From contig NZ_BMFY01000002.1 of assembly GCF_014639315.1 (NCBI RefSeq), positions 186,001 through 250,000 on the forward strand: a DNA stretch of 64,000 nt, in the 5' to 3' direction. Numbering within the stretch: the first letter of the stretch is position 1; each line of letters opens with the position of its first letter. Below the pieces are notes generated by a model. It saw nothing but the letters and a program-made list of their open reading frames with translations. It ran no database searches and was not told where the DNA came from. Shown here piece by piece: positions 32,476 to 42,589 of the stretch. The position numbers and the translations under genes are program-made. This DNA is from Sediminivirga luteola (GTDB lineage Bacteria; Actinomycetota; Actinomycetes; Actinomycetales; Brevibacteriaceae).

Positions 32476-34056
32476 TCAGCCCTCGTAGTAGATCGGGGCG
32501 TTCGGGCCGAGCTCCAGTCCGGTCAGCATCCAGATGATGGTCATCAGCGCCCACGCGAGCATGAAGGCGAGCGAGTACGGCAGCATCACCGCCACCAGGG
32601 AGCCGATGCCGATCCGCTTGTCGTACTTCTGCGCCACGGCGATCACGATGGCGAAGTAGGTCATGAGCGGGCTGAGGATGTTGGTCGCGGAGTCGGAGAC
32701 CCGGTAGGCGGCCTGCGTGAACTCCGGGGAGATGCCCTGCAGCATCATGATCGGGACCATGATCGGCGCCAGCATCGCCCATTTGGCCGAGGCGCTTCCG
32801 ACGAACAGGTTCACGATCGCCACGAACAGCATGAACGCCAGCACCAGCGGGATGCCCGTCAGGTTGATGGAGTCCAGCAGCCCGGCACCGTACACGGAGA
32901 CCAGCAGGCCCAGGTTGGAGTGGTTGAAGTAGGCGATGAACTGGCCGGCGGTGAAGGCGAGGACCAGGAACATCGCCATGCCGGCGAGGGTCTTGCTCAG
33001 GTGGTTGACCACATCGGTGTCATTGCGGACGCTGCGGGTCACGATGCCGTAGACCAGGCCCGGCACGAAGAACGCGATGATGATGACGACCACGAGCGAG
33101 CTCATGAACGGCGACTGCACGACGGCGCCGTCCTCCCCGCGCAGCACGCCGTTCTCCGGCACGATCAGCAGGAGCATCAGGCCGAGGGTGACCAGCAGGG
33201 AGACCGCGGCCCAGATCATGCCCTTCTTCTCCACCGCGGTGATCTTGAGGCTCTCGCGGTCCTCGCCCTTGAGCACGCCCTCGCCGCTCCAGGCGCCCAG
33301 GCGCGGCTCTACGATGAACTGGCTGACGAGGGTGCCGACGACGGCCAGGAGGGCGGTGGAGGCGATGATGAACCAGTAGTTCATCGCGAGGTTCATCTGA
33401 TCGGCGTAGGCCGGGTCGATCGTGGCGGCCGCCTCGATGGTGAGTTCGCCGAGCATGACGTCCGTGGCCGAGAGCAGCAGGTTCGCGCTGAAGCCGGCGG
33501 AGACACCGGCGAAGGCGGCGGCGATGCCGGCCAGCGGATGGCGGCCCAGGGCGATGAAGAGGATCGCGGCCAGCGGCGGCAGCACCACGTAGCCGGCGTC
33601 GGAGGCCACGGAGGACATGATGCCGGCGAAGACGATCCCGAAGGTGACCAGGAACTTCGGGATGGAGAGGATGAAGCTGCGCAGCGCCACCCCGATCAGG
33701 CCGGTCTGCTCCGCCATGCCGATGCCGATCATCGTCGCCAGCACCACGCCCAGCGGCGCGAAGGTGATGAAGTTCTCCACCGCGGAGGTGAACATCCACT
33801 CGATGCCCTCCGCCGAGAGCAGGTTGAACACCTGCACCGGTTCGCCGTCCACGGGCGATTCCGCTTCCACTCCGAGTCCGGACAGCAGGGCGGAGAGGAG
33901 GACCACCAGGGCGGCGAGGAGGGCGAACAGCGTTGCCGGGTGGGGCAGTTTGTTCCCGAGGAACTCGATCCCGTCCAGGAACCGCTGGAGGACACCTCCC
34001 CGGGGCTTCGGCTCAGGGTTCGGTCCCGGGGTCGTCTCGGTGGCGGTGGCGCTCAA
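32476..34056 (-). CDS. AbgT-family transporter
   Basis: This 526-residue membrane protein has about 11-13 transmembrane helices plus re-entrant loops. AbgT members import p-aminobenzoyl-glutamate or pump out sulfonamides. Family segments include GFSANLLLSATDVMLGELT (about 193-211) and VGSASAKWAMLAPIMVPIMM (about 427-446). The start is TTG at 34056, with GGGAG seven bases before it; the N-terminal 35 residues are polar and Pro-rich. No p-aminobenzoyl-glutamate hydrolase gene (abgA/abgB) is adjacent, so substrate and direction are open. Monocistronic. Confidence 0.85.
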   Translation of the reverse strand: MSATATETTPGPNPEPKPRGGVLQRFLDGIEFLGNKLPHPATLFALLAALVVLLSALLSGLGVEAESPVDGEPVQVFNLLSAEGIEWMFTSAVENFITFAPLGVVLATMIGIGMAEQTGLIGVALRSFILSIPKFLVTFGIVFAGIMSSVASDAGYVVLPPLAAILFIALGRHPLAGIAAAFAGVSAGFSANLLLSATDVMLGELTIEAAATIDPAYADQMNLAMNYWFIIASTALLAVVGTLVSQFIVEPRLGAWSGEGVLKGEDRESLKITAVEKKGMIWAAVSLLVTLGLMLLLIVPENGVLRGEDGAVVQSPFMSSLVVVIIIAFFVPGLVYGIVTRSVRNDTDVVNHLSKTLAGMAMFLVLAFTAGQFIAYFNHSNLGLLVSVYGAGLLDSINLTGIPLVLAFMLFVAIVNLFVGSASAKWAMLAPIMVPIMMLQGISPEFTQAAYRVSDSATNILSPLMTYFAIVIAVAQKYDKRIGIGSLVAVMLPYSLAFMLAWALMTIIWMLTGLELGPNAPIYYEG

Positions 34057-34299: not shown

Positions 34300-35013
34300 T
34301 CAGGGGTCGGCGCGATGCAGCGACCCCTCGGGGAAGGTGGTCCTGGAGTAGGCCAGGTGATCGGCCATCGCCGCCGCGGCCGCAGCCGGATCGCGTGCCT
34401 CCAGCGCCGCGAGAATGGCCTTGTGCCCCCTGTTGCCGCCGCGCATGCCTTCGCGGAAGGTGGTCACGGAGTCGTAGATGCCGCGGACCACGACGTCGAT
34501 GAGGGGGGAGAGCATCGCCGGGAACAAGGGGTTCCCGGTGGCGCGGGCGATGGCCAGGTGGAAGTTGGCGTCCGCGACGGTGTAGTTCTCCGGGTCCTCC
34601 TCCGCCTCGGTCATCCGCTGCACCAGATCCCGGAGCGCGCGCAGATCCTCCGGTGTGGCTTTGCTCGCGGCGATGCGCGCCGTCTCGCGCTCGACCATGC
34701 GGCGGACCGCGTACAGATCGTCGGCGGAGTAGTCACCCTGGGCCCCCACCGAGATGTGCTCCAGCATCATCTCCAGCATCGGGGCCGAGCGGCGGGGCCG
34801 CACGAACGAACCACGGCCGTTGAGCGTCTCGATGTAGCCGCGTTCGCGCAGGCGGGCGAGCATCTCCCGGATCAGCGGCCGGCTCACGCCGAGGTCAGCG
34901 GCCAGCTCCATCTCACTCGGGAGCTTCTCCCCGACGGCATACTGCCCGGCTTCCAGGCGCTCCTCCATCTGCTCGACGAGGAGGTCGACACGGGCCGCGT
35001 AGTGCCTCACCAT
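34300..35013 (-). CDS. GntR-family regulator (FadR/FCD type) of the TRAP operon
   Basis: This 237-residue protein has a winged helix at about 5-75 (AADLGVSRPLIREMLARLRE) and an FCD domain with DANFHLAIARATGN (about 145-158), whose His is a usual metal ligand. ATG 35013 is chosen over 35055 because GGGAGG lies six bases upstream. It is divergent from the TRAP/kinase/aldolase operon, and the palindrome at 35076-35100 lies between them on the operon's -35 box. It is therefore a likely repressor released by the transported compound or an intermediate. Confidence 0.87.
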   Translation of the reverse strand: MVRHYAARVDLLVEQMEERLEAGQYAVGEKLPSEMELAADLGVSRPLIREMLARLRERGYIETLNGRGSFVRPRRSAPMLEMMLEHISVGAQGDYSADDLYAVRRMVERETARIAASKATPEDLRALRDLVQRMTEAEEDPENYTVADANFHLAIARATGNPLFPAMLSPLIDVVVRGIYDSVTTFREGMRGGNRGHKAILAALEARDPAAAAAAMADHLAYSRTTFPEGSLHRADP

Positions 35014-35075
35014 GCATGCCTCCCGGTCCGACCGAATGGGGACGCCCCCACGCACCTAGATCCAGACTGTAGCAA

Positions 35076-35119
35076 ATGCTGCCAAGCTGTTTGACAGCAT
35101 GACAGCGCATCCCTATGGT
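35076..35119 (+). promoter_or_regulatory. TRAP-operon promoter with overlapping GntR operator
   Basis: TTGACA (35091-35096), 17-base spacer, TATGGT (35114-35119): a near-consensus promoter. The inverted repeat ATGCTGCCAA-GCTGT-TTGACAGCAT (35076-35100, one mismatch in 10-bp arms) covers the -35 box, so binding would exclude polymerase. Confidence 0.78.
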
Positions 35120-35231
35120 GTGGTGAGGCGCCCGAGGCGCCGCCCGCACAGCCACACGTGAAAACCCGCATCAACGCTCACACGCCGAAGGCGCCGTGCG
35201 CTTCGTCCTGAGTCTTGCAAAGGAGCAGATC

Positions 35232-36239
35232 ATGACTCGACACCTGCCCAAGTCCGCCGCAGCGCTCGCCGCGGCCGGTGCGCTCACCCTGACCGCCTGC
35301 GGGAACGGGGACAGCGGCGACGGCGCGACCACGCTCTCGTTCGCCCACGTCCTGGCCGAGTCCCAGCCCTGGCACGAATGCGGCGCGCTGCCCTTCGAGG
35401 AACAGGTGAACGACTCGGGCACCGGCCTGAGCGTCGACCTCTTCCCGGCGGCCCAGACGCACAACGACACCCTCGAGCAGCTCGACGCGATCGACTCCGG
35501 GAACCTGGACATCACCTGGGCCACGCCCGCGCAGCTCGGCACCCGCCTGAGCACCCTCGAGGTGTTCGACGCGGCCTACCTGTTCGAGGACGTCGACCAC
35601 ATGACCGCCGCCGTGCAGTCCGAGCCGGCGCAGGAACTCTGGGACGAACTGCGCGATGAGCACGGGATGCGCGTGATCGGCACCGGCTACTACGGCACCC
35701 GCCACCTGACCTCGAACAACCTCGTCAGCACCCCGGAGGACATGGCCGGCCAGCAGCTGCGCGTCCTGGACGCCCCGCTGTGGCTGGACAACGGCGCCGC
35801 GCTGGGCGCCCAGCCCACCCCGGTGGCGTTCAGCGAGCTCTACCTGGCACTGCAGCAGGGCGTCGTGGACGCGCAGGAGAACCCGCTGCCGGTGATCCAG
35901 GCGCAGGGCTTCGACGAGGTGCAGGACTACGTGCATCTGACCGGGCACGTCGTGGCGATGATGGCCGTCGTCATCTCCGAGGACACCTGGCAGGGCCTCT
36001 CCGGCGAGCAGCAGGAGGCCGTCCTGGCCGCCGGTGAGACCCTCGGCACGGGCGTCACCGACTGCACGCTCACCGAAGAGGAGGAACTGCTCTCCGAGTG
36101 GAGCGCCGGCGGTGCTGACATCACCGTCAACGAGGACGTCGACCTCGACGCCTTCCGCGCGAACGCCGAAGAGGTCCTCTTCCCCAAGTACGAGGACGCG
36201 TGGGGCGAGACCTACCGCGCGCTGCAGGACCAGCAGTAG
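35232..36239 (+). CDS. TRAP transporter substrate-binding lipoprotein (DctP)
   Basis: This 335-residue DctP-family protein has a lipoprotein signal peptide (lipobox LTAC, Cys23). The family core is clear: LEQLDAIDSGNLDITWATPA, MRVIGTGYYGTRHLTSN and GQQLRVLDAPLW, then VAFSELYLALQQGVVDAQENP, which carries the substrate-binding stretch (about 193-213; core LYLALQQGVVDAQENP). TRAP proteins bind acids, often sugar acids, outside the membrane. A kinase and an aldolase in the same operon point to a polyhydroxy acid or sugar. ATG 35232 has AAGGAG six bases upstream. Confidence 0.88.
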   Translation: MTRHLPKSAAALAAAGALTLTACGNGDSGDGATTLSFAHVLAESQPWHECGALPFEEQVNDSGTGLSVDLFPAAQTHNDTLEQLDAIDSGNLDITWATPAQLGTRLSTLEVFDAAYLFEDVDHMTAAVQSEPAQELWDELRDEHGMRVIGTGYYGTRHLTSNNLVSTPEDMAGQQLRVLDAPLWLDNGAALGAQPTPVAFSELYLALQQGVVDAQENPLPVIQAQGFDEVQDYVHLTGHVVAMMAVVISEDTWQGLSGEQQEAVLAAGETLGTGVTDCTLTEEEELLSEWSAGGADITVNEDVDLDAFRANAEEVLFPKYEDAWGETYRALQDQQ

Positions 36240-36262
36240 GACGAGAGCTCAGGAGCCGGCGC

Positions 36263-36958
36263 ATGTCCTCCGCATCCCACCCGCGTCCCGGACGCGCCCC
36301 GGAAGAGGGCGGCGCCGACCGCCCTCTTCTGGGGCCGCGTGGCCGCTCCCGGCTCCGGCCGGTGGCCCGCGTGCTGCTCGCCGCGGAAGGCGGCCTCGGC
36401 GTCCTGGTCGTGGCCATCATGGCCGCACTGCTGATCGCGCAGGTGGCCGCACGCAACCTGCTGCCGTTCTCCTTCTTCTGGGCCGAGGAGGTCGCCCGGC
36501 TGGCGCTGATCTGGATGACCATGCTCGGCGTCGCCTACGCCGTGGGACGGGGCACGCACCTGACCGTCACCGCGATCACCGACTACGCTCCCCCAGCGGT
36601 CCGCCCCTGGTTCCAGCGTGTCTCCCTGCTGCTCATCGTCGCCGTCGGGATCCTGCTGTGCGGCAGCTCCCTGCAGCTGATGGACAGCATCGGCGGGGTC
36701 GCCGCCAGCTCCAGCGCGATCCCGCGGAGCGTGTACTTCCTGGCCAGCGCGACCGGTTACGGCCTGGCCGCCGTCCATGCCGTCCTGGTCCTGCTGATCG
36801 GCCCGCTCCGCGAGACCGCCGACCCGGCCGCCGGCGCGCTGAGCACCCCTGCCGAACCCGATGGACCGGGTGCCCCGGCGCCAGGCAGCACCGACGGCAC
36901 CAATGGCGCTGACGGCACTGACGGCTTCGGCACCGACTCGCGGGGGAATACCGCATGA
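36263..36958 (+). CDS. TRAP transporter small membrane subunit (DctQ)
   Basis: This 231-residue membrane protein has four predicted helices between about 40 and 190 and the DctQ motif FWAEEVARLALIWMTMLG (about 74-91). It docks the large DctM subunit. The C-terminal 35 residues are a low-complexity Gly/Thr/Asp tail (GTDGTNGADGTDGFGTDS) not needed for the fold. Start ATG 36263; overlaps dctM by ATGA. Confidence 0.85.
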   Translation: MSSASHPRPGRAPEEGGADRPLLGPRGRSRLRPVARVLLAAEGGLGVLVVAIMAALLIAQVAARNLLPFSFFWAEEVARLALIWMTMLGVAYAVGRGTHLTVTAITDYAPPAVRPWFQRVSLLLIVAVGILLCGSSLQLMDSIGGVAASSSAIPRSVYFLASATGYGLAAVHAVLVLLIGPLRETADPAAGALSTPAEPDGPGAPAPGSTDGTNGADGTDGFGTDSRGNTA

Positions 36959-38232
36959 TCGCGCTCATCGTCACGCTCGTCGCGCTCGCGCTCATCCTGG
37001 CCCGCGTCCCGGTCGGCTTCGCGCTGCTAATCCCCTCGGCCGGGTACATCCTGTTCTACTCCAGTCAGTCGCTCACCGCCGCCGTCGAGCGGATGACCGC
37101 CTCGCTCAACAGCTTCCCGCTGCTGGCCGTGCCCCTGTTCATCCTGGTGGGCTCCCTGGCCAACGCCGCCGGCCTCTCCGACCGCATCTTCACCGCCGCG
37201 CAGGCCCTCGTCGGCCGCGTCCGCGGCGGCCTGGGATACGTCAACATCCTGGCCTCGCTCGGTTTCTCCTGGATGAGCGGCTCCGCCGCCTCCGACGTCG
37301 CCGTGCTGGGCAAGATCACCACGCCGCAGATGCTCAGCCGGGGCTACCCGCGCCGCTTCGTCGCCGGTCTGACGTCTGCGTCCTCGCTGGTGGCGCCGAT
37401 GATGCCGCCGAGCATCCCGGCGATCATGTTCGGCGTCGCCAGTGGCGTGTCGATCGGCGCCATGTTCCTGGCCTCCGTCGTCCCGGCGCTGCTGCTGACC
37501 CTCGTGCTGATCCTCTCGGTGTTCCTCTACACCCGCCGGCATCCCGGCCTGATCGAATCGGGACAGGTCTCCGGAAGCCGCCGCCGGGCGGTCCTGACCG
37601 CCCTGCCGGTGGCCTTCGCCCCGGTCATCGTGCTGGGCGGCATCCTCGGCGGGATCTTCACGCCCACCGAGGCGGCCGCCACCACCGTGGCGTACCTGCT
37701 GGTGCTGGCCTTCCTGGTCTACCGGTCGCTGTCGCTGCGCAAGCTCATCGGCGCCCTGCGGGAGACCTTCTCCACCTCGGTGACGATCCTCTTCATCGTG
37801 GCGTCCTCCGCGATGTTCGGCTGGGTCCTCACCGTGGAGCGGGTGCCGCACGCGCTGGCCGATCTGATCCTCTCGATGACCGACAGCCCGACCGTCTTCC
37901 TGCTGATGATGATGGTCGTGCTGCTGCTGATCGGCATGGTCATGGAGCCCACCTCCGCGGTGCTGATCACCACGCCGGTGCTGTTCCCGATCTCCCAGCA
38001 GCTGAACGTCGACCCGGTGCACTTCGGCGTCGTCCTGGTGTTCACCCTGCTGATCGGCCTGTTCACGCCGCCTGTCGGGCTCGTGCTGTTCGTGCTGGAA
38101 TCGGTCAGCACGCTGCGGAACTCCGAGATCATCCGGGGCGTTCTGCCGTACGTCGCCGTGTTCATCGGCTTTGCGATCCTGCTCATCCTGGTCCCGCAGA
38201 TCGCGCTGTGGCTGCCGGGGATCGCGCAGTGA
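36955..38232 (+). CDS. TRAP transporter large membrane subunit (DctM)
   Basis: This 425-residue permease has about 11-12 transmembrane helices and the DctM landmarks RVPVGFALLIPSAGYILF (about 14-31), SGSAASDVAVLGKI (about 106-119) and SLVAPMMPPSIPAIMFG (about 143-159). It drives uptake using the sodium or proton gradient. Overlaps DctQ upstream (ATGA) and the kinase downstream (GTGA). Confidence 0.88.
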   Translation: MIALIVTLVALALILARVPVGFALLIPSAGYILFYSSQSLTAAVERMTASLNSFPLLAVPLFILVGSLANAAGLSDRIFTAAQALVGRVRGGLGYVNILASLGFSWMSGSAASDVAVLGKITTPQMLSRGYPRRFVAGLTSASSLVAPMMPPSIPAIMFGVASGVSIGAMFLASVVPALLLTLVLILSVFLYTRRHPGLIESGQVSGSRRRAVLTALPVAFAPVIVLGGILGGIFTPTEAAATTVAYLLVLAFLVYRSLSLRKLIGALRETFSTSVTILFIVASSAMFGWVLTVERVPHALADLILSMTDSPTVFLLMMMVVLLLIGMVMEPTSAVLITTPVLFPISQQLNVDPVHFGVVLVFTLLIGLFTPPVGLVLFVLESVSTLRNSEIIRGVLPYVAVFIGFAILLILVPQIALWLPGIAQ

Positions 38233-39614
38233 GCGCCGCCGACGCGACAGCCGGGCAGGCGCTGCTCCTGGACGTCGGCAGCACCTCGGTCAAGGCCGCG
38301 CTGGTCGACCGGCAGGACGGGGCGCTGCTCGCGCAGGACTCCGCGCCGATGCCGGCCCCCCTTCCCGGCCCGGACACCCGGCACGAACTGGATCCGTCCG
38401 CGGTGCTCGCCGCGGTGAACGAGGTCGCCGCCCGGCTGCTCTCCGCGCCCGGCGTCGCACCGCGCGCGGCCATCATGAGCACCCAGATGCACTCGTGCCT
38501 GCTGACGGATGCCGCCGGCCGGCAGGTCAGCCCCGTCATCACCTGGCAGGACAATCGCCTGCTGGAGGCCGGCGCGGACGGCCGGCGCGAGCTGGACCGG
38601 CTCGCCGGTTCCATCGAGCCGGGCCTCTGGCGCCGCTCCGGGATGGCCGTCCGCCCCGGTTTCGGCGCGGGGAACCTCGGGACGTGGCTGCGCGAGCAGG
38701 GCACCGGGGAACAGGGCCTGCGGGTGCACACCCTCGGCAGCTTCCTGGCCACGGCCTGGGACGGGCCCTACGCGACGGGAGCCTCCAACGCGGCGTCGCT
38801 GGGCATCCTCGACGTCTGCGACGTCCACGCCGGTGGCGGCTACCACTGGTCCGCGCCGCTGGCACGGCTGCACGGGCTCGACGCCTGCGATCTCCCCCGG
38901 GTCCTCCCGGAGCCCGGCCCCGCCGGCACCGTCCGCATCGCCGGCCGGGAGCTGGAATGGCATGGCGACCTGGGTGATCATCAGGCATCGGTGCTGGGTT
39001 CCGGCGGCCTCGAACCGGACGATCTGGCGATCTCGCTGGGAACCGCCGGGATCGCCGCCCGGCTGGCGGATGCCCCCAGCGACGATCCCCGGGTGGACTC
39101 GCGGCCGTACTTCGGCGGACGGTACCTGCTGGCAATGAGCCGCCAGCCCGGCGGGGCGCTCGCCGCCGAGTTCGCCGGGATGCTCGCCGAGATCGCCGGC
39201 ACGCTGGGCAGCCGGCACATCGACATCGGGGCGGTCTGGAGCACCCTGGCCGAGACGGTGCCGCCGCCGGCAGCGGACACCCGGCTGGAGGTGACGGAGG
39301 CGGCGAACGGCAAGCGCACGCTCGCCCTCGCCGGGATCCGTCCTTCCGCCGCCCTGACCACCATGTACGCGGCTTTCCTGCGGCACTACGTGGAGGTCTA
39401 CCGCGACTGCGTGGACACCCTGTTCGGCCCGGACGTCCCGCCGCCGGCGCGGCTGAAGTTCAACGGGGGGTTCGCGGCGCGGAACGCCAGTTTCCGTACC
39501 GCGCTGGCCGAGCGGCTGGGCCTGCGCATCGACGACATCCCCGATGGGGACCTCGCGCTGGAGGGTCTCCGCTCGCTCATCACCACCCGCACACCCTGGA
39601 GGCAACCCTCATGA
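38229..39614 (+). CDS. FGGY-family carbohydrate kinase
   Basis: This 461-residue kinase belongs to the FGGY family (xylulose, gluconate and glycerol kinases). It has N-terminal phosphate loop LLLDVGSTSVKAALVD (about 12-27), the middle QDNRLLEAG, and C-terminal ISLGTAGIAARLA and LKFNGGFAARNASF nucleotide loops. The GTG start at 38229 overlaps the DctM stop, so it is translated with the transporter. It would phosphorylate the imported sugar, polyol or acid. FGGY subfamilies are hard to separate by eye, so the substrate is not given. Confidence 0.82.
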   Translation: MSAADATAGQALLLDVGSTSVKAALVDRQDGALLAQDSAPMPAPLPGPDTRHELDPSAVLAAVNEVAARLLSAPGVAPRAAIMSTQMHSCLLTDAAGRQVSPVITWQDNRLLEAGADGRRELDRLAGSIEPGLWRRSGMAVRPGFGAGNLGTWLREQGTGEQGLRVHTLGSFLATAWDGPYATGASNAASLGILDVCDVHAGGGYHWSAPLARLHGLDACDLPRVLPEPGPAGTVRIAGRELEWHGDLGDHQASVLGSGGLEPDDLAISLGTAGIAARLADAPSDDPRVDSRPYFGGRYLLAMSRQPGGALAAEFAGMLAEIAGTLGSRHIDIGAVWSTLAETVPPPAADTRLEVTEAANGKRTLALAGIRPSAALTTMYAAFLRHYVEVYRDCVDTLFGPDVPPPARLKFNGGFAARNASFRTALAERLGLRIDDIPDGDLALEGLRSLITTRTPWRQPS

Positions 39615-40378
39615 CCTCGTCCGCCCCCGACCCGTCGCCGGTCATCGGCACCATGATCTCGGAGTTCTCCGGGCCCGGGATGCCCCGTGTCCTGCATCGG
39701 ATCGGGTTCCGCTTCGGCATCGTCGACACCGAGCACGGCGCCTTCGGCTTCAGTGAGCTGGCGACGATGGCGGCGGTCTCCGCGCAGCTGGACTTCGAGC
39801 TCCTGGTCCGGGTTCCGGCCATCGCACGGGAGCACATCGGGCGGGTCCTGGACCTCGGCGCCGATGGCATCGTGGTGCCGATGGTGAACTCCGCCGAGCA
39901 GGCCGCCGAGGCGGTCCGGCTGGCCAAGTACGGGCCGCTGGGGGAACGGGGCGTCTCGGTCACCCGGGCGCACTCCGGCTACGGCGTACGTGACCTTCCC
40001 GCGTATCTGGAGGAGGCGAACGCGCGCACCAAGCTCTACGTCCAGATCGAGACCGCCGAGGCCGTGGCCGAGGCCGCCGCCATCGCCGCCGTCCCCGGCG
40101 TGCACGGGCTGTTCATGGGCCCGAACGATTTCCTGCAGTCCCAGGGCGCGCCGGGCCAGCTGGACCATCCCGTACTGGACCGGGCGATGGCAGCGGTGGC
40201 CCAGGCCGCGCAGTCGGCCGGCGTGGAGTCGGGTGTGATCAGCTCCAGCGCCGCACTGCTGTCCCGCGGCGCGGAACTCGGCATGGGGGTCCTGAGCTAC
40301 GACAGCGAGCTCGGCCACCTGATCAAGGGCGCCGGTGCGGCGCTGTCATCGCTGCAGCGGAAGCTCGGCACGGCCTGA
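39611..40378 (+). CDS. HpcH/HpaI-family class II aldolase
   Basis: This 255-residue pyruvate-type aldolase barrel has FGIVDTEHGAFGF (about 36-48), an Arg in LLVRVP (about 66-71), the metal-binding Glu in YVQIETAEAV (about 143-152) and Asp in GLFMGPNDFLQSQG (about 167-180). Relatives split 2-oxo-3-deoxy acids into pyruvate (or oxaloacetate) and an aldehyde. Overlaps the kinase stop by ATGA and closes the operon, giving the order transport, phosphorylation, cleavage. Confidence 0.85.
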   Translation: MTSSAPDPSPVIGTMISEFSGPGMPRVLHRIGFRFGIVDTEHGAFGFSELATMAAVSAQLDFELLVRVPAIAREHIGRVLDLGADGIVVPMVNSAEQAAEAVRLAKYGPLGERGVSVTRAHSGYGVRDLPAYLEEANARTKLYVQIETAEAVAEAAAIAAVPGVHGLFMGPNDFLQSQGAPGQLDHPVLDRAMAAVAQAAQSAGVESGVISSSAALLSRGAELGMGVLSYDSELGHLIKGAGAALSSLQRKLGTA

Positions 40379-41446: not shown

Positions 41447-42589
41447 ATGGCCGTCGAACTGGATCTTCTCCTTCTCATCCTCCTCGGCCTGCTCGTCTTC
41501 GGTCTCGGCGCCGGCACGACCGCGCTGCTGGCCCGCCGCATCCGTGTGCGCGCGGTCAGCGAGGCCACCCAGGCGGCCCAGGCCGATGCGCGCCATTACA
41601 ACGCCTCGCAGGCCGAAGCCGCTGCGCCGCCGCGCGCCGCGCTCATCGTCAACCCCACCAAAGAGGGCGCCGGCACGCTTCCCGCCGATGCAGAGGCGAT
41701 CATGCGTCAGGAGGGGTGGGCGGCGCCGCTCGTCCTGGAGACCGACGCCGACGATGCCGGGACCTCCGCGGCGCTGACCGCCCTGGACGCCGGCGTGGAC
41801 CTCGTGATCGCGGCCGGCGGCGACGGTACCGTGCGCGCGGCGGCGCAGGTCCTGGCCGGCACGGGCGTGCCCCTCGGCATCGTCCCCATGGGCACCGGCA
41901 ACCTCCTGGCCCGCAACCTCGATCAGCACCGGCTACGTCGCGACCAGTCCATCCGCACCGCGCTGTGGGGGCGCAACCGCCGGATCGACATCGCCCAGCT
42001 GGCGCTCGACGACTCGGACGAGGTGCATGCGTTCCTGGTGATGGCGGGATTCGGTTTCGACGCCGATGTCATGGCCAACACCGACGCCGAGCTGAAGTCC
42101 CGGGTGGGCTGGCTGGCATACTTCGAGGCCGGCAGCCGCAAGCTCGGCGGCAAGCCCTCGCAGGTGTCCCTCCGCTTGGACGACGGGCCCACCCTCCAGT
42201 TGCGGGTGCGCACCGTCGTCGGCGGCAACTGCGGGAAGATCCAGGGCGGGATCGAGCTGATGCCCGATGCCCGCATCGACGACGGCCGGCTGGACATCCT
42301 CACCGTCTCGGCCAAGAACATCGGGGACTGGGTGGCGGTGGCCGCGCGGTTCCTGGGCCGGAACCGGATCCGGCTGCCGCAGGTGGACATGCACCAGTGC
42401 CGTACCGCCACGGTGGAGAGCGAGGACGTGCTGGAGGTCCAGCTGGACGGCGACCCCATCGGCACGGCGCAGCGTCTGCGGATGTGGATCGAGCCGGCTG
42501 CACTGCTGGTGCGTGTGCCCACACAGGAGCAGCTGCGGCTCATACGGCAGGAGAGCTGGCGCCTGGCGCTGCCGAAGTCCGAGCGGTGA
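41447..42589 (+). CDS. Diacylglycerol-kinase-family lipid kinase
   Basis: This 380-residue lipid or sphingosine-type kinase (DAGK catalytic domain) has an N-terminal membrane helix (about 4-25). The catalytic domain begins at LIVNPTKEGAG (about 66-76), with AAGGDGTVRAAA (about 123-134) for nucleotide binding and IVPMGTGNLLARNL (about 145-158). The C-terminal half (GGNCGKIQGGIELMPDAR) matches the second lobe. It probably phosphorylates a membrane lipid on the cytoplasmic face. Start ATG 41447; convergent with pheA. Confidence 0.86.
   Translation: MAVELDLLLLILLGLLVFGLGAGTTALLARRIRVRAVSEATQAAQADARHYNASQAEAAAPPRAALIVNPTKEGAGTLPADAEAIMRQEGWAAPLVLETDADDAGTSAALTALDAGVDLVIAAGGDGTVRAAAQVLAGTGVPLGIVPMGTGNLLARNLDQHRLRRDQSIRTALWGRNRRIDIAQLALDDSDEVHAFLVMAGFGFDADVMANTDAELKSRVGWLAYFEAGSRKLGGKPSQVSLRLDDGPTLQLRVRTVVGGNCGKIQGGIELMPDARIDDGRLDILTVSAKNIGDWVAVAARFLGRNRIRLPQVDMHQCRTATVESEDVLEVQLDGDPIGTAQRLRMWIEPAALLVRVPTQEQLRLIRQESWRLALPKSER

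Follow-up and report, generated by a model that had tools for sequence, protein, structure and literature searches.

Which compound is degraded by an operon that joins an importer to a kinase and an aldolase, and in what order do the two enzymes act on it? This question is raised by positions 34300-40378 of a 64,000-nucleotide stretch from the actinobacterium Sediminivirga luteola (contig NZ_BMFY01000002.1, positions 186,001 to 250,000; the whole stretch is called the window below), where open reading frame calls and Pfam matches confirmed a divergent GntR/FCD regulator gene and a five-gene plus-strand operon for a tripartite ATP-independent periplasmic (TRAP) transporter with the binding protein P0001, an FGGY carbohydrate kinase (P0004) and an HpcH/HpaI class II aldolase (P0005). 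We consider it probable that the operon is a self-contained unit for the breakdown of an acidic keto-sugar, serving its uptake, phosphorylation and retro-aldol cleavage. The TRAP transporter would import a carboxylated sugar, as its conserved carboxylate-binding residues suggest, the FGGY kinase would phosphorylate the imported acid, probably at the terminal hydroxyl, and the metal-dependent HpcH/HpaI aldolase would cleave the product of the kinase, a 2-keto acid phosphate, to a sugar phosphate and pyruvate, with hydroxypyruvate in place of pyruvate if the acid is not 3-deoxy. The sugar phosphate could enter central metabolism directly, so that the route would have no need of an isomerase or dehydrogenase. 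Genes for these two enzymes are absent from the operon, as an earlier reading of this DNA from its letters alone (the sequence-only reading) had stated, and so is a dehydratase gene.

Kinase and aldolase as a recurrent pair

The pairing of the two enzymes recurs far from the window. In 15 loci of distant Clostridia, gathered from the surroundings of aldolase relatives and then by a profile search in further Clostridia, a related FGGY kinase stands directly upstream of an aldolase of the same subfamily. The two are adjacent separate genes in L017, L019, L022, L136, L137, L139, L140 and L148 (L-numbers denote loci), and they form a single protein in the other seven (L020, L024, L026, L031, L034, L040 and L138), with fused frames of about 575 residues in the first six of these. 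The paired kinases carry the motifs of the window kinase (DxGST..K, QMH, W.D, GD..Q, GTA, RPY and GG), and most of them are shortened to about 310-350 residues, while that of L148 has 429. This last locus, in which a CUT1-type ABC importer is followed by a BNR_2 gene, the FGGY kinase and the HpcH aldolase, repeats the arrangement of an importer with kinase and aldolase behind it. The Clostridial pairs and fusions thus share with the window the kinase superclade, the aldolase clade and the gene order, whereas they differ in their mostly shortened kinase, in the usual presence of BNR_2, in the AraC regulator by most fusions and in having no TRAP genes, the importer of L148 being of the ABC type. 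Where it is present, the AraC regulator gene is divergent and lies upstream of the fusion, and the BNR_2 gene is usually downstream of the fusion.

The aldolase links the window to this set. When 73 aldolases were placed in a tree, one branch separated that of the window and all 15 FGGY-paired ones from the 57 others (branch support 82/93), the label "FGGY-paired" took 2 changes to explain, as opposed to 13.9 in shuffles, and forcing the window aldolase to the PfkB-paired aldolases was rejected (p 0.015), although the PfkB-paired set is not one clade even when the window sequence is left out. In addition, G166, I210 and E233 are common to the window aldolase and 15 of 15 FGGY-paired aldolases and are rare in the other 57. 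As such, the window aldolase appears, with moderate support, to belong to the FGGY-paired clade, and the pairs and fusions suggest a real but unnamed two-step breakdown route. That kinase and aldolase are instead unrelated passengers of one operon, acting on different imported acids, is very unlikely in our estimate: the kinase tree, which does not firmly group P0004 with the aldolase-paired kinases, would agree with it, but the 15 loci in which the two genes are adjacent or fused, and the grouping of the paired aldolases in their tree, argue against it.

P0005 itself resembles the pyruvate aldolases HpaI, GarL and YfaU (2-keto-3-deoxyrhamnonate (KDR) aldolase) in fold family and in metal and catalytic residues, and differs from them in that it reaches none of the NCBIfam equivalog cut-offs of HpaI, GarL and KDR aldolase; its best matches, GarL and HpaI, score at most 114 bits against cut-offs of 369-441. 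Residues D39, E41, H42, R67, E147 and D173 are invariant in an alignment of six aldolases, and we take H42 and R67 to be the catalytic histidine and arginine, and E147 and D173 the metal ligands, by their roles in HpaI. Among the matches listed for a six-sequence profile, the nearest homologues are about 41% identical and come mostly from gut Clostridia. The host genome holds three further HpcH/HpaI paralogues, 29-34% identical (G000:C1:207828-208472, C5:139583-140266 and C5:4908-5546).

The kinase is a divergent member of its family. P0004 shares the N-terminal domain and the catalytic aspartate with named FGGY kinases such as xylulokinase, gluconokinase and glycerol kinase, whereas it has no Pfam FGGY_C match and stays under every NCBIfam cut-off, its best solved relative in sequence being a xylulokinase at 43 bits. 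Its AlphaFold2 model is of moderate confidence (mean predicted local distance difference test score 72.7, with residues 307-372 of low confidence), and Foldseek aligned it along its full length to FGGY kinases of two domains, at a template-modelling score of about 0.7. Because the model matches these kinases end to end, we regard P0004 as a complete but divergent FGGY kinase, as far as a predicted structure can tell. The catalytic residue D250 falls on the GD motifs when aligned to kinases of known structure, and neither it nor Q86-M87-H88 varies across an alignment of ten kinases.

Searches that started from P0004 returned little. At the thresholds used, only its own gene was found among 60 genomes of the family, 396 of the order and 396 of the phylum, a direct scan of the genome-contig collection gave no relative, and a plasmid search gave no match at E 1e-20 and only generic xylulokinase-like matches at 1e-3. 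Relatives of the kinase were therefore reached through the aldolase. In the kinase tree, in which the longer FGGY kinases of L142-L155 other than L148 served for comparison only, as they are not beside an aldolase, P0004 forms a very long branch within a superclade (100/99) of paired and some unpaired kinases. Because its place in that superclade is not settled by the tree, the kinase may have been recruited separately from the aldolase.

Order of the two steps

FGGY kinases are not the only partners of this aldolase family. In a neighbouring aldolase clade from gut Oscillospiraceae the partner is a PfkB kinase, often followed by a D-2-hydroxyacid dehydrogenase gene, and one cluster (L025:2449-8717) combines LacI, TRAP genes, a PfkB kinase nearest to kinases of 2-keto-3-deoxygluconate (KDG) or its galacto-epimer (KDGal) and an HpcH aldolase. 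Since both pairings recur, a sugar-acid kinase is coupled to the HpcH aldolase family repeatedly, through two unrelated kinase families. The Oscillospiraceae loci with LacI, PfkB, HpcH and 2-hydroxyacid dehydrogenase genes (L010, L011, L018, L021 and others) are like the window in having a kinase with an HpcH aldolase of the neighbouring clade, and L025 also in its TRAP genes, but they differ in the family of the kinase and, often, in the dehydrogenase gene downstream. Other aldolases of the family commonly have a gene for a 2-hydroxyacid-type dehydrogenase as a neighbour, and none was seen beside the FGGY-paired ones, so that pyruvate would be a likelier product than hydroxypyruvate. In all, clusters with PfkB followed by HpcH, mostly with a divergent LacI gene and often with a D-2-hydroxyacid dehydrogenase gene, recur in gut Clostridia at L010, L011, L018, L021, L023, L027, L029, L032, L033, L044, L045 and L047, and their function is apparently unnamed.

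One would expect the same genes if the aldolase acted first, so that an imported keto acid yields pyruvate and either a free sugar or an aldehyde, which the FGGY kinase then phosphorylates, in the order of NanA and NanK. GarL, HpaI and YfaU, the relatives that P0005 matches, act on unphosphorylated substrates, which is in line with this order. On the other hand, the Q-M-H motif of xylulokinase-like ketose kinases would fit a 2-keto substrate better than an aldose, and where PfkB kinases of the KDG-kinase type accompany aldolases of a related clade, phosphorylation comes first; on these grounds we judge cleavage before phosphorylation to be unlikely. The sequence-only reading had placed the two enzymes in series, and the 15 pair or fusion loci together with the FGGY-paired aldolase clade lend support to this coupling, while the order of the steps and the substrate are what we infer.

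Phosphorylation before cleavage would also hold in a more specific route, in which KDG or KDGal is the substrate, the FGGY kinase takes the place of KdgK and the HpcH/HpaI enzyme that of the 2-keto-3-deoxy-6-phosphogluconate (KDPG) aldolase. L025, with its TRAP genes, KDG/KDGal-kinase-like PfkB and HpcH aldolase, is a parallel for such a route, the products of which would be pyruvate and glyceraldehyde-3-phosphate. However, the host genome has three genes of the KDPG-aldolase family and seven of nine Clostridial genomes have one, which makes a further aldolase for this substrate less expected. We therefore hold this special case of an acidic keto-sugar pathway to be rather doubtful.

Ligand and substrate

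The solved proteins closest to the binding protein P0001 in sequence are SiaP proteins. In alignment with these, P0001 retains the carboxylate-binding arginines, the asparagine of QENP (QEN motif) and the phenylalanine of FSE, whereas two residues of the SiaP sugar pocket differ: the E and R of the SiaP stretch YAEFGR, which we take to belong to that pocket, are T and Q in P0001. A conserved arginine is reported to make TRAP solute-binding proteins selective for carboxylates (PMC4646407). Given that the carboxylate-binding residues are kept, an acid would be the expected ligand of P0001, and this acid is probably not N-acetylneuraminic acid (Neu5Ac). The best plasmid relative of P0001 (39% identity) is found on plasmid pCdes1 of Corynebacterium deserti (L009:7826-18302), in an operon with genes for an Ldh-family dehydrogenase, an enolase-superfamily dehydratase, an aldehyde dehydrogenase and an FAH-family protein, and with neither FGGY nor HpcH; this sugar-acid operon of the dehydratase type suggests a sugar acid and nothing more specific.

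A further clue to the substrate comes from the Clostridial loci. A gene for a BNR_2 protein of about 330 residues adjoins the kinase-aldolase pair in 12 of the 15 loci and is absent beside L137, so it is not essential to the module. The family profile matches sialidases of the PDB at E about 1e-10, which makes BNR_2 a remote sialidase relative, and its invariant residues E200, R216, R271 and Y301 are, in a weak alignment, candidates for the catalytic glutamate, two arginines and tyrosine of sialidases. Sialidase-family enzymes act on 2-ulosonic acids. Because the Clostridial enzyme pair travels with this distant sialidase relative, our favoured candidate for the substrate is a 3-deoxy-2-ulosonic acid that carries no amino group, for example 3-deoxy-D-manno-octulosonic acid (Kdo), 2-keto-3-deoxynononic acid (KDN) or a shorter homologue. 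From Kdo or KDN, phosphorylation and aldol cleavage would yield arabinose-5-phosphate or mannose-6-phosphate besides pyruvate, and both of these sugar phosphates are ordinary metabolites. Here we tentatively propose, at well below even confidence, a phosphorylate-then-cleave pathway for such an acid, so far undescribed, in Clostridia and in the window actinobacterium. In gut Clostridia, a cytoplasmic sialidase relative might free the acid, which a fusion of shortened FGGY kinase and class II aldolase would phosphorylate and split; in the window actinobacterium, the TRAP transporter might bring in the free acid, on which the separate kinase and aldolase would act likewise.

Neu5Ac itself might be used in an unusual order, that is, SiaP-like TRAP import followed by phosphorylation and by cleavage to N-acetylmannosamine-6-phosphate and pyruvate. 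Such a route would accord with SiaP as the best solved relative of P0001, with NanR as the best NCBIfam match of the regulator, though under the cut-off, and with the sialidase-like gene of the Clostridial relatives. It is nevertheless highly improbable, as the first arginine of the triad is missing from the sialidase-like genes, E and R of YAEFGR are exchanged in P0001, and NanE was not found in the host genome and reached the family cut-off in one of nine relatives, several of these being partial metagenome-assembled genomes. The absence of NanE from the host genome and the two differing pocket residues led us to reject sialic acid as the substrate.

Several points weigh against the acidic keto-sugar pathway proposed for the operon. 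The branch that unites the FGGY-paired aldolases has moderate support (82/93), and the kinase tree does not resolve P0004 as nearest to the aldolase-paired kinases, a joint clade with these being not rejected (p = 0.32); P0004 could equally join unpaired FGGY kinases, the alternative grouping having a support of 61/40. Gene pairing is no proof of step order either, and cleavage could come first with the fragment phosphorylated afterwards. The first arginine of the sialidase triad is replaced, in the alignment, in the BNR_2 family (SCEP), so an ulosonic-acid substrate is not assured. Moreover, BNR_2 is absent from the window operon, and the family profile found no match in the host genome, a weak negative as the search had no positive control; the Clostridial clue may therefore not transfer to the window, while the missing homologue is also consistent with uptake of a free acid.

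Other genes were observed around the Clostridial modules. An alpha-L-rhamnosidase gene of the GH78 type and a second BNR_2 gene lie near the fusion of L138 (L138:866-2809), and the former, in this one locus only, is a possible hint at the side chains of plant pectin. Large proteins with Listeria-Bacteroides (Flg_new) repeats are encoded upstream of BNR_2, FGGY and HpcH in metagenome-assembled genomes of Clostridia (L022:2230-5910, L136:5307-7199 and L139:11946-15653), and nucleoside-hydrolase-family genes lie near the module in two loci (L034:7078-8007 and L136:7230-8147).

Layout and control of the operon, and its place among known pathways

The features of the locus are collected in Table 1. 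The overlapping gene set noted in the sequence-only reading is borne out by the Pfam identities and by a 4-bp overlap at each of the DctQ/DctM, DctM/FGGY and FGGY/HpcH junctions, and 23 bp separate DctP from DctQ. Genes for the solute-binding protein, the small permease and the large permease are present together, which identifies a TRAP (DctPQM) transporter. Third-position GC is 0.88-0.96 in every gene of the operon and in that of the regulator, and the frames are thus taken as coding; the start of the GntR gene was revised, with 35013 preferred over 35055, and that of the kinase was corrected to the GTG at 38229. No terminator-like site was found just 3' of the aldolase gene on the plus strand. 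The operon has a GC content of 0.710 against 0.704 for the window, and does not look foreign by its base composition. A gene for a transporter of the AbgT family (p-aminobenzoyl-glutamate type; 32476-34056, minus strand, Pfam ABG_transport 643 bits) adjoins the regulator.

Table 1. Genes and control sites of the locus (positions in the window)
Feature	Position	Strand	Evidence
GntR-family regulator, FCD (FadR) subfamily	34300..35013	-	Pfam GntR 59.5 bits, FCD 108.3 bits
Candidate operator palindrome ATGCTGCCAA-GCTGT-TTGACAGCAT	35076..35100	.	Inverted repeat, 9/10 arm positions paired, 5-nt spacer
Sigma-70-like promoter TTGACA-17-TATGGT	35091..35119	+	10/12 consensus matches; shuffles mean 0.0
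TRAP solute-binding protein DctP (P0001)	35232..36239	+	Pfam DctP 215 bits
TRAP small permease DctQ (P0002)	36263..36958	+	Pfam DctQ 84 bits
TRAP large permease DctM (P0003)	36955..38232	+	Pfam DctM 380 bits; NCBIfam dctM 379 bits, above cut-off
Divergent FGGY carbohydrate kinase, 461 aa, GTG start (P0004)	38229..39614	+	Pfam FGGY_N 58.5 bits
HpcH/HpaI class II aldolase, 255 aa (P0005)	39611..40378	+	Pfam HpcH_HpaI (PF03328) 98.1 bits, gathering score 25

The promoter is the only promoter-like site upstream of the operon, and its -35 box falls inside the right arm of the palindrome, a match for which occurred 0 times in 100 shuffles of the window. The near-perfect promoter-operator that had been read from the letters is thus upheld. 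The regulator joins a predicted GntR winged helix-turn-helix to an FCD domain, the palindrome overlaps the promoter, and the top NCBIfam match of the regulator is NanR at 133 bits, far under the cut-off of 260. The GntR/FCD protein is probably a repressor of the operon that would occupy the palindrome over the -35 box and leave it in response to the substrate or an intermediate. No second copy of the palindrome was found in the window, nor genome-wide with fewer than three mismatches, and the one match with three mismatches is uninformative, as a reversed control pattern also yields one. Because of this single site, the regulator seems dedicated to the operon, and a co-regulated dehydrogenase elsewhere, which would have told against the pathway as first read, is not indicated.

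The lipid-kinase-like gene beside the operon (41447-42589) is present in most close relatives, but none of the genes for regulator, TRAP transporter, kinase or aldolase occurs in the four neighbourhoods examined, two of which keep the neighbouring PheA nearby. Thus the cassette was either gained in the host lineage or lost in the others.

As a precedent for a TRAP importer that feeds a sugar-acid kinase and a pyruvate-yielding aldolase, Haemophilus influenzae degrades L-gulonate with GulPQM, GulD, UxuB, UxuA, KdgK and an aldolase (PMC5788505). The two systems are alike in TRAP import of a sugar acid, in ATP-dependent phosphorylation and in aldol cleavage, which in Haemophilus gives pyruvate and a triose phosphate. 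The L-gulonate pathway, however, uses two dehydrogenases, a dehydratase and KdgK, whereas the window operon has no dehydrogenase, dehydratase or PfkB-type KdgK gene and carries an FGGY kinase and an HpcH/HpaI aldolase instead. A survey of FGGY kinases gives nine functions, with gluconate the only acid that we noted among them, and its text does not contain the word "fusion" (PMC3245297). Literature on FGGY with HpcH, on KDG kinase with FGGY and on Kdo catabolism, taken from open-access sources and thus mostly outside subscription papers, did not describe the gene set. This agrees with the earlier view that no named pathway has exactly these genes, and their novelty is provisional.

Together, these results give a coherent function to a recurrent and apparently undescribed pair of FGGY kinase and HpcH/HpaI aldolase, found in gut Clostridia and in this actinobacterium. 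With such a function, FGGY kinases would gain an acidic keto-sugar as a substrate, and the pair would point to a compound that is used by gut and environmental bacteria alike, perhaps an ulosonic acid of plant or bacterial cell walls.

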